In this document: piece after piece, positions 3,270-6,925 of the stretch | Numbering within the stretch: the first letter of the stretch is position 1 | Layout of the letters: every line of letters starts with the position of its first letter | Source of the DNA: Candidatus Magnetominusculus sp. LBB02 | GTDB taxonomy: Bacteria > Nitrospirota > Thermodesulfovibrionia > Thermodesulfovibrionales > Magnetobacteriaceae | Length of the DNA stretch: 38,997 nt | Assembly: GCA_022321325.1 (NCBI GenBank) | Contig: JAKOEO010000006.1 | Coordinates: forward strand, 25,501-64,497 | Direction: 5' to 3' | Program-made: the position numbers and the translations under genes | The notes under the pieces: model-generated | What the model saw: the letters and a program-made list of their open reading frames with translations, nothing else | Told to the model about the DNA's origin: nothing | Database searches by the model: none

Positions 3270-3644
3270 TCATTTGCTCTCATCGTGCGTTTTAGTAATT
3301 TTCTCTATATCAAGCCCCACAAGTACATTATCGGTGTCAGAGAGGTCTCCTAGTATTTTCCTCAACGGCATGGGAAGGGTTTTTACCAGAGTCGGGATTG
3401 CCACTATATCGTCTTGTAGTGCAAGCTGTGGTTCTCTCCTGAGGTCTACCACTTCAATTTTATATTTGGAATTAAGGTGTTTTTCACATATCTCGTTGAG
3501 ATTAGAGATAGCGGTGACTGATTTAAGAGTCTGACCAGCCACATAAAGCCTTAGCTGCCATGTCGTATGGTTACCTATTGATTCAGTCTCTTGCGCCACT
3601 GGCTCATTGGATCTCCCAACATTTTTCTCATCAACGTCATCCAC
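3270..3644 (-). CDS. kaiB: KaiB-like circadian clock/thioredoxin-fold protein
   Basis: [70 protein letters not shown] is the typical KaiB pattern. GTG start with AGGAGG (3654-3659) inside the 3' end of kaiC. Confidence 0.9.
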
Positions 3645-5152
3645 TGGTAAGTTCCTCCTTTTGTTGTTATTCCTGAGCCTGTGTAAGCGTCGAGAATTTT
3701 GATACCCTTGTCTGTGATCAAAAAATCTCTTGTCTGATTTGAATGAGACATCCCCCTTGACTTGATTATAGAAAGCCCTCTTGTACGCTCTCCGCTATAT
3801 TCATTGTTTGTTAGAAATATCCATGTATCCATCAGCGAAGAAATACCCATGGAAGAGGTGTAGAGGCTCTCGTCAGACCCGTTAAGAGTGGTGTAAAGTG
3901 ATGTGATGTTACTTGCTTTCATTAGGTCTATAAGCCTCATCATAAGCATCTTTATTTCATTTTCACTGCCAATATCGCTATAATTTGTAATCGGGTCCAT
4001 GATAATCACAGATGGCGCGAATTCATTAATAAGCCTGTGTGTGGCGACAAGGTGAGTCTCTATGCCGAAGGAGGTGGGCCTGCTTGCGACAAGTCTTAAA
4101 GCACCCTGTTTAACAAAAGGCTCAAGGTCCATGCCTATTGATCTGGCATTCCTGATTACCTGATGCGGAGATTCCTCAGATGCAAGATAGAGACATCTCT
4201 GCCCGCGCGCACAGGTTGCATTAGCTAAGTGTAAAGCAACGCTTGTCTTTCCTGTGCCTGCAGTGCCTGAGACAAGCACCGTGCTGCCACAGAAATAGCC
4301 CTTTTCGTCCAACATCGTATCGAGATGGGCAATGCCGGTAGAAATATGCTCATCAGACACCTTGTATTCAAGCCCAATGGATGTGACAGGCAGTACCGAG
4401 ATACCGTTTGAGTCTAAGAGAAATGGATATTCGTTTGTGCCGTGACTCGATCCGCGATACTTTGTGACGCACAGACGCCGGGTTAAGATCTGCCTTTCCA
4501 CCCTGTGGTCTATGAGGATTACACAGTCGGCAATATACTCTTCGAGTCTGTTTCTTGTGAGTGCGCGCTCGCCCCTTTCAGCAGTGACAATGGCTGTTAA
4601 GCCTTTTTCCTTCAGCCAATTTAACAGCCTTTTAAACTCAGACCTTAGTAAATTATGCTGCGTCAGTCCTGAAAAAAGAGAATCTATGGAATCAATGCCT
4701 ACTCTCTTTGCCCCAATTGCGTTTACTGCATAATCGAGTCTGATAAACAGACCTTCGAGGTCATATCCCCCCGATACTCCAACTTGATTGTGATCAATAC
4801 TGATGGAATCAACAAATATTTTGCCTTTTTTCGATAAGTCGGCAAGATCAAAACCGATGGAGGCAGCGTTTATAGCGATGTCTTCCTTATTCTCATCGAA
4901 AGATATAAAGACGCCGGGCTCGTTATATTCTATAGCCCCTCTCACAAGAAACTCTACTGTTAAAAGTGTTTTACCGCACCCTGGGTTGCCGCAGACGAGC
5001 GTTGGACGCCCCGCTGGAAGCCCGCCAAATGTGACCTCATCAAGTCCCTTTATTCCCGTCAAAGACTTCAGGAGCTTCCCATCCTGTTGAATGCGCTGAT
5101 TTGTCAGACTCACCGATATGCCCCCCCTTTGCCCACCTTGGCCCACCATCAA
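3575..5152 (-). CDS. kaiC: KaiC-like double-domain RecA-family ATPase (likely start ATG 5149, or GTG 5113 behind a GGGGGG stretch)
   Basis: Two P-loops, GNPGCGKT and GTAGTGKT, in tandem KaiC domains; [12 protein letters not shown]-terminal [23 protein letters not shown]. Confidence 0.93.
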
Positions 5153-5329: not shown

Positions 5330-6925
5330 GTGGATAACGCAATTGTCGTAACATATGAACTGGCCTGCAAAGATGCGGAAGAGGCGCAAATGGCCGCCGT
5401 GGCTATTGCCTATGAACAGACGGTAGAACTGCCCGTTGACTTTCCACTGAATGAGGAAATCACAACGCGCATAATCGGCGTGATAAGGCAGGTCAGGCAG
5501 ATAGGCGACGGTCTCTATGCCGCAGAGATTGCCTATGCCGCAGAGATAACCGGTGGGCAGATACCGCAGCTCCTGAATGTCCTCTATGGCAATATCTCTA
5601 TCAAGAATAATATTAAACTTACGGGAGTTGAATTCCCCGCGCAATTTCTCGATAATTTTAAGGGGCCAAACTATGGGATTGAAGGCGTCAGGGCGCTGAC
5701 CGGCGTCTATGGCAGACCGCTTCTGGCAACGGCGCTAAAACCTATGGGGGCCTCCCCCTCTGAACTTGCCGCAATTGCCTATGCCTTTGCTGCGGGCGGC
5801 GGCGACATTGTAAAGGACGACCACGGACTTGTTGACCACAGCTTCTGCGGCTTTAAAGACCGCGTTATCAGATGCATTGAGGCCGTTGAAAGGGCGGCTG
5901 ATAAGACCGGCAGGAGATGCCTCTATTTCCCGAATGTCCTTGCCGAGGTTGGCGTTATTGAACGGCAGGTGGAGTTTGCATTATCTCACGGCGCACCCGG
6001 CATATTAATCTCGCCATATATTGTCGGCCTCGATACGGTGAGGTCATTGGCCGTTCGCTATCCAATAGCCATAATGGCGCACCCGGCCCTTACTGGGACG
6101 AATTTCCAGGCCCCGCGTCACGGCATTACGCCCTCTGTGCTGCTGGGCACGCTATTTCGCCTTGCCGGTGCTGACATCTGCGTCTATCCAAACGTTGGCG
6201 GCAGGTTTAGTTTTACTCTGGATGAGTGCAGCCGTCTAAACAAAGCGCTAAGGGGCGGACTTGGCGGCCTTAGGCCATCGTTCCCGGCACCGGCAGGCGG
6301 CATGTCCCTCGCTAATATCGCTGAAATGGCGGCGCTATATGGCCCTGATACGATTTACCTGATTGGCGGGGCGCTCCACGGCTATGACAAAGACCTATCT
6401 TTGGGCAGTCGCGTATTTATGGATAAGATACGCGGTTTTTTCAGCGAACGCGTAGAAACACCGGCTGCTAATTCCAACGCCGCGGTATCGTCATGCGATA
6501 TAAACGCAGGCAGTGTCAATCATGTAAGCGTGCCAAAGATACATATGGCCTTCAACGAAGATTTCCGATGGGACGGCGTTACCCCTAAGGTCTATAAGAC
6601 GGGGGGGCAATTGGATTTTAAAGCGGTTACAAGGCATGAGCTGATAGGAACAAACGAAGAGGGGGCCGACTTTGACTTGCGATATTTTCAGATAGAAGAG
6701 GGCGGCTTTTCTTCGTTAGAGAAACACGTCCATGTCCACGTAATCATATGCGTAAGAGGGAAGGGCACGCTGCATTGTAACGGCATCGCGTACACGCTGC
6801 GCCCATTAGACGTTGCCTATGTACCGCCGCTCCATGTGCACCAGCTAAGCAACGACGGCAAAGACGGGCCATTTGGTTTTTTCTGCATAGTAAACCACCT
6901 GCGCGACAAGCCGCTGAGGCCATAG
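5330..6925 (+). CDS. RuBisCO-like protein (form IV type) fused to C-terminal cupin domain
   Basis: RuBisCO large-chain landmarks: GVRALTGVYGRPLLATALKP, AGGGDIVKDDHGL, IAIMAHPALTG, IYLIGGALHGY. C-terminal cupin: RYFQIEEGGFSSLEKHVHVHVIICVRGKGTLHCNG...PLDVAYVPPLHVHQLSN. GTG start. Confidence 0.9.
   Translation: MDNAIVVTYELACKDAEEAQMAAVAIAYEQTVELPVDFPLNEEITTRIIGVIRQVRQIGDGLYAAEIAYAAEITGGQIPQLLNVLYGNISIKNNIKLTGVEFPAQFLDNFKGPNYGIEGVRALTGVYGRPLLATALKPMGASPSELAAIAYAFAAGGGDIVKDDHGLVDHSFCGFKDRVIRCIEAVERAADKTGRRCLYFPNVLAEVGVIERQVEFALSHGAPGILISPYIVGLDTVRSLAVRYPIAIMAHPALTGTNFQAPRHGITPSVLLGTLFRLAGADICVYPNVGGRFSFTLDECSRLNKALRGGLGGLRPSFPAPAGGMSLANIAEMAALYGPDTIYLIGGALHGYDKDLSLGSRVFMDKIRGFFSERVETPAANSNAAVSSCDINAGSVNHVSVPKIHMAFNEDFRWDGVTPKVYKTGGQLDFKAVTRHELIGTNEEGADFDLRYFQIEEGGFSSLEKHVHVHVIICVRGKGTLHCNGIAYTLRPLDVAYVPPLHVHQLSNDGKDGPFGFFCIVNHLRDKPLRP

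Follow-up and report, generated by a model that had tools for sequence, protein, structure and literature searches.

The methylthioadenosine (MTA)-isoprenoid shunt has been established experimentally in two alphaproteobacteria (PMC5893883; PMC4958253). Rhodopseudomonas palustris encodes two RuBisCO-like proteins (RLPs), and its RLP1 was demonstrated in vivo and in vitro to be the 5-methylthioribulose-1-phosphate (MTRu-1P) 1,3-isomerase of the shunt (PMC5893883). The step directly after the RLP is carried out by a cupin-type 1-methylthioxylulose-5-phosphate (MTXu-5P) methylsulfurylase, Rru_A2000 in R. rubrum, which uses glutathione (PMC4958253; PMC5893883). In both R. rubrum and R. palustris the RLP and the cupin are consecutive enzymes, as established by experiment, and are encoded by genes that lie close together (PMC4958253; PMC5893883). 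RLP and cupin homologs are also found in H. halophila in a similar gene order (PMC4958253).

Results

An RLP and a cupin are encoded in one open reading frame

The window, the whole 38,997-nucleotide stretch of Candidatus Magnetominusculus sp. LBB02 DNA that was analyzed, encodes an RLP and a cupin together in a single open frame. An earlier note, made from the letters alone, had described this continuous frame, and the linker and motifs it quoted are present letter for letter. Both Pfam domains exceed their gathering scores (RuBisCO_large, E 6.9e-26; Cupin_2, E 2.4e-07). The features of the gene, all on the + strand, are as follows.

5330..6925, +: RLP-cupin fusion gene, 531 aa, GTG start; predicted bifunctional MTRu-1P 1,3-isomerase / MTXu-5P methylsulfurylase
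5330..6445, +: RuBisCO-like domain, residues 1-372, assigned to the DeepYkr clade (Pfam; 3qfw by sequence and fold; tree; model confidence)
5738..5740, +: K137, equivalent of RuBisCO K175, kept and invariant (alignment)
5813..5824, +: KDDH motif, K162-H165, at RuBisCO K201, D202, D203 and E204, with Glu replaced by His (alignment)
6080..6085, +: H251-P252 at RuBisCO H294-R295, His kept and Arg replaced by Pro (alignment)
6203..6205, +: R292 in GGRF at the loop-6 K334 position, invariant in the clade (alignment)
6473..6529, +: disordered linker, residues 382-400 (pLDDT below 50)
6554..6922, +: cupin domain, residues 409-531, relative of the MTXu-5P methylsulfurylase Rru_A2000
6719..6739, +: E464, H466, H468 and H470, predicted cupin metal-binding motif (invariant in 31 fusions; common with Rru_A2000)
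6839..6841, +: H504, predicted last cupin metal ligand (invariant in 31 fusions; common with Rru_A2000)
6884..6886, +: C519, conserved in all aligned cupins (also in Rru_A2000; invariant in 31 fusions)

An AlphaFold model of the full-length protein, computed from an alignment of 31 fused relatives, has a mean pLDDT of 88.5, with mostly good confidence in the cupin. A model of the cupin only, made without an alignment, reached a pLDDT of 33.5 and was left out of the analysis. Immediately upstream and divergent from the fusion is a gene for a KaiC-like double ATPase (window 3575-5152, - strand). It was not found next to the fusion in the relatives checked, and a search among relatives for a conserved gene neighborhood around the fusion found none.

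The RuBisCO-like half has the signature of the DeepYkr clade

For the RLP half, 3qfw, an R. palustris RLP, is both the best solved sequence match (E 8.7e-74, about 40% identity) and the best fold match (TM-score 0.94 on the target). By elimination we take 3qfw to be RLP1 (RPA2169), because R. palustris has two RLPs and 2qyg bears the name of RLP2. A tree of 93 RLP domains was built with FastTree and read without reliance on its weak branches. In it, a branch with a support of 99 separates the window protein, 3qfw and 86 more relatives from MtnW and other RuBisCO relatives. This phylogenetic placement, a check the earlier note had proposed, assigns the window RLP to the DeepYkr clade.

Catalytic positions were mapped by alignment to a RuBisCO relative from the same order with intact catalytic motifs (L022). 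As had been read by eye, the K175-type Lys and the carbamylated Lys (K201) are kept, as K137 and K162, and the KDDE Glu (E204) and loop-6 Lys (K334) are replaced, by H165 and R292. D203 is kept as D164, and A322 is at the S379 position. The HRAMHA motif had been considered replaced altogether; this is correct for the Arg (R295 is P252) but not for the adjoining His, as H294 is kept as H251.

The substitutions are not peculiar to this protein. They recur in nearly all of the 87 clade members examined: K334 is Arg and R295 is Pro in 87 of 87 sequences, and the E204 position is His in 85 and Gln in two. The R. palustris structure 3qfw carries identical letters at the positions of K137, K162, D164, H165, H251, P252 and R292. 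Across the aligned sequences, then, Glu to His in KDDE, Lys to Arg in loop 6 and HR to HP form a signature of the DeepYkr clade. As K334, E204, R295 and S379 of the CO2-fixing RuBisCOs (forms I-III) are all substituted, the window RLP should not fix CO2, in agreement with the earlier expectation.

The cupin half resembles shunt cupins

Only three PDB entries match the cupin half strongly, 3ibm, 3jzv (Rru_A2000) and 3kgz, with E values from 1.7e-25 to 9.9e-20; the fourth match drops to E 4e-5. The match to Rru_A2000 has an E value of 4.2e-20, and identity to the characterized alphaproteobacterial cupins is 35-36%. The source of 3ibm is presumably H. halophila. Given the membership of the domain in the cupin family, the Glu and His residues of its motif would ligate a metal. 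The conserved C519 is a candidate residue for thiol chemistry. Another Cys, right after the HxHxH (HVIICV), was considered as the nucleophile and dropped, as it is missing in many fusions from other phyla.

In the cupin tree the fused cupins are neighbors of standalone cupins, with a support of 97, and Rru_A2000 is in another branch together with RLP-associated cupins. These standalone cupins, from the same order, are the closest relatives of the fused domain, and they are encoded in genomes with mtnA but in which no RLP of the clade was detected. Most Thermodesulfovibrionales-type relatives that lack a clade RLP encode one. In all seven loci examined (L159-L165) the standalone cupin has, within a few kb, a gene for a zinc-type alcohol dehydrogenase, always of the same family. 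Some other Nitrospirota (L018, L019, L020, L057, L070 and L078) encode an RLP followed by a separate, divergent cupin with about 30% identity to the fused cupin; it lacks the RDxP ending and forms a long branch of its own.

The fusion is found in about eight phyla

Genome contigs were scanned with an RLP alignment, yielding 80 loci; a single-protein query had found nothing. The RLP is fused to the cupin in 27 loci and has a separate cupin nearby in 21 (in one about 1.8 kb away). In another 22 the cupin is absent and a transketolase half is upstream, and the last 10 lack both. The fused loci span about eight phyla. They include Nitrospirota (Ca. Magnetominusculus, Magnetobacterium and others), Planctomycetota with anammox bacteria among them, Fibrobacterota, Hydrogenedentota, FCPU426, Firestoneibacteriota, Desulfuromonas and Gammaproteobacteria. 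One is on a complete chromosome (CP066225.1, L052).

In the family of the window, 16 of 20 genomes encode the full-length fusion, with the 15 relatives at 50-76% identity. Of the remaining four, one has fragments of the fusion and three have no match, two of the three being incomplete. With the same single-frame fusion in these 16 genomes, in other phyla and on a complete chromosome, its recurrence goes well beyond chance and a one-off assembly artefact is excluded. The earlier note had held that a one-off fusion without homologs would count against its proposal; homologous fusions exist, so this objection does not hold.

Every fused RLP falls within one group with a support of 99 in the RLP tree, along with a few unfused members, and every fused cupin within one group with a support of 96 in the cupin tree. 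The RLP tree alone requires up to five changes between fused and unfused. A single origin of the fusion, after which it spread and was in some cases lost or split, would fit the trees best. In the literature searched we found no description of an RLP-cupin fusion, though the primary papers on the shunt may contain an earlier mention.

A sister clade without the cupin is linked to mtnK and mtnA

The cupin-less sister clade has the gene order mtnK-mtnA-transketolase N-transketolase C-rlp. This order is found in Alicyclobacillus (L076) and an Acidimicrobiia genome (L107), in both of which MtnK is above its cut-off, and as annotated on plasmids of Rhizobium and Mariluticola (L174, L176), whose RLPs were left out of the RLP tree. 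In all four transketolase-rlp loci examined mtnK and mtnA are upstream. The position of rlp in an mtnK-mtnA operon therefore ties the RLP family to methylthioribose independently of the cupin. In about 20 further loci a DeepYkr-type RLP without a cupin immediately follows a transketolase encoded by two genes, one each for its N and C halves. The arrangement is a candidate cupin-free route for MTXu-5P; no paper joining its terms was found in the literature searched.

Enzymes flanking the fusion in its proposed pathway are encoded in the genome

The genome encodes an MTA phosphorylase (MtnP; 296 bits against a curated cut-off of 275), an MtnA above its curated cut-off, the gene of which is broken by a contig end, and both Dxs and Dxr. 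MtnP, MtnA and Dxr, the enzymes by which shunt membership was judged, are all present, and substrate supply and product use for the shunt are in place. The fusion as the only source of 1-deoxyxylulose-5-phosphate (DXP) was rejected: as Dxs is present, it would be at most a supplementary source.

The oxygen-dependent dioxygenase ARD had no match in this genome, and no O-acetylhomoserine sulfhydrylase was above the cut-off in the genome search. No match to glutathione synthetase (PF02955) was obtained in this genome or in the 15 searched genomes with a completeness of 90% or more, and the single match, marginal and partial, came from a less complete relative. Because the genome is 91.6% complete, a single absence weighs little, and absence across the relatives is stronger. 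The lack of a detected glutathione synthetase suggests that the thiol partner probably differs from that of R. rubrum; glutathione is unlikely to be the thiol here.

In most of the order a polyprenyl diphosphate synthase gene comes after mtnA, whether or not an RLP is encoded (L035/L036, L119-L158), mostly together with an AMMECR1/MEMO-like gene. In the genome of the window the mtnA stop and the synthase start overlap. As the pair occurs regardless of the RLP, it is non-discriminating and was set aside as support for an isoprenoid link. On a Terrarubrum flagellatum plasmid (L175) an RLP, a cupin and cysE (serine O-acetyltransferase) are encoded in a row, which suggests that the methylthio group, once released, is captured on an O-acetylated amino acid.

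Discussion

We propose that the fusion is a bifunctional MTRu-1P isomerase/methylsulfurylase of the MTA-isoprenoid shunt, a reading to which we give a probability of roughly 0.72. It draws on the domain identities, clade membership, predicted active-site conservation, recurrence of the fusion and the presence of the flanking pathway enzymes, all of which the analysis shows. MTA phosphorylase and MtnA would supply MTRu-1P. The RLP half would shift the keto group of this substrate by a 1,3-proton transfer to give MTXu-5P, from which the cupin half, with a thiol, would remove the methylthio group. The products would be DXP for isoprenoids, consumed by Dxr, and, for the recovery of sulfur, either a methylthio disulfide or methanethiol. 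The flexible linker may keep the two active sites near each other. What we infer are both activities, the sequence of the steps in the fusion and any benefit of fusing them. The isomerase step is very likely. The methylsulfurylase step is held less firmly, mainly because the nearest relatives of the cupin are the standalone cupins of the same order. Also against the proposal are the distance of the characterized enzymes, the missing glutathione synthetase and sulfhydrylase matches and the lack of a conserved gene neighborhood. Of the activities suggested earlier for the protein (enolase, isomerase or decarboxylase), isomerase fits the DeepYkr clade and RLP1, and no decarboxylase step is implied. 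The suggestion that the cupin provides a second catalytic step is the best reading, with its relative Rru_A2000 acting after the RLP; it is predicted to act on the product of the RLP, however, and not on the same substrate as had been thought.

The main competitor is that the RLP half is the MTRu-1P isomerase and the cupin catalyzes another reaction, for instance that of the standalone cupins. The cupin tree, which groups the fused domain with them and apart from Rru_A2000, is consistent with this, as are their genomes, with mtnA and no detected clade RLP, and the alcohol dehydrogenase adjoining all seven loci. Yet the cupin is fused to the enzyme that would make the substrate of the methylsulfurylase, shares the motif residues and has strong PDB matches solely to shunt-type cupins, and we consider the other reaction unlikely. 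Less probable still is that the RLP half mainly isomerizes 5-deoxyribulose-1-P directly to DXP while the cupin takes the methylthio version. The by-product of radical SAM enzymes, 5'-deoxyadenosine, is a source of 5-deoxyribulose-1-P. MTAP and MtnA, the makers of the methylthio substrate, also accept the deoxy sugar and are present, and from the reaction chemistry the same 1,3-shift on a 5-deoxy sugar would give DXP. This would leave the fusion to a cupin unexplained, however, and MTRu-1P is the sole published substrate of the clade that we found (PMC5893883).

Two further explanations are very unlikely. The cupin could be a ligand-sensing or regulatory domain and no enzyme, as a weak Pfam AraC_binding match to the same region might indicate, but the fusion has no DNA-binding domain, its predicted metal ligands and C519 are invariant in the 31 fusions, and Rru_A2000 is an enzyme (PMC4958253). 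Equally improbable is an MtnW-type 2,3-diketo-5-methylthiopentyl-1-P (DK-MTP-1P) enolase with a dioxygenase-like cupin in oxygen-dependent methionine salvage. Although DK-MTP-1P enolase is the top NCBIfam name, the scores are far under the curated cut-offs (215 of 409 bits for NF007095, 150 of 513 for TIGR03332), the RLP is outside the MtnW branch (support 99), the genome has no ARD match and the strong solved cupin matches are not ARD. Diketo-MTP-1-P, put forward earlier as an assay substrate, accordingly belongs to the wrong clade.

The two-domain protein of the window is genuine and conserved, and the best reading is that two known enzymes of consecutive steps have fused naturally; what is new is the single-gene form, both component enzymes being already known. 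So read, it offers strong natural evidence that the RLP isomerase and cupin methylsulfurylase act jointly, with one gene for two enzymes that would recycle methylthioadenosine, a sulfur-containing metabolic waste, into an isoprenoid building block. It would extend the predicted shunt to about eight phyla, and provide a specific annotation for proteins labeled merely as RuBisCO large-chain domain and cupin. As a single expressible protein, it also lends itself to studying the two-step reaction, how substrate is passed on and which thiol is used. More tentatively, and with somewhat less than even odds, the fusion may be a glutathione-independent one-polypeptide route from MTRu-1P to DXP, using another thiol or a protein reductant, perhaps with C519, and possibly passing the intermediate between sites. 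Its hosts would include many anaerobes (magnetotactic Nitrospirota, anammox bacteria and others).

Comparison with known systems

Tetrahymena MtnBD is a precedent for a fusion of methionine-salvage enzymes, in which one part is the dioxygenase MtnD (PMC3698126); it differs from the window fusion in its oxygen-dependent pathway and unrelated first domain. MtnW, the DK-MTP-1P enolase of the YkrW clade, shares with the window RLP the RuBisCO-like fold, methionine salvage and the kept K175 and K201, but is of another clade and retains KDDE, and the window RLP is far below the MtnW model cut-off. The MTXu-5P methylsulfurylases Rru_A2000 (3jzv, R. rubrum) and RPA2170 (R. palustris) are, like the window cupin, partners of an RLP. 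They have in common with it the cupin family, metal-motif residues, conserved C519 region and RDxP end; the window cupin differs in being fused, in its 35-36% identity and in a genome without a detected glutathione synthetase. The MTRu-1P 1,3-isomerases RLP1 (RPA2169) of R. palustris and Rru_A1998 of R. rubrum (PMC5893883; PMC4958253) are DeepYkr RLPs, the clade of the fusion. 3qfw, taken as RLP1, and the window RLP have the same fold and the same KDDH, GGRF and HP signature. While the known DeepYkr isomerases consist of a single domain, the cupin having its own gene, the window protein, at about 40% identity to 3qfw, carries its cupin fused.
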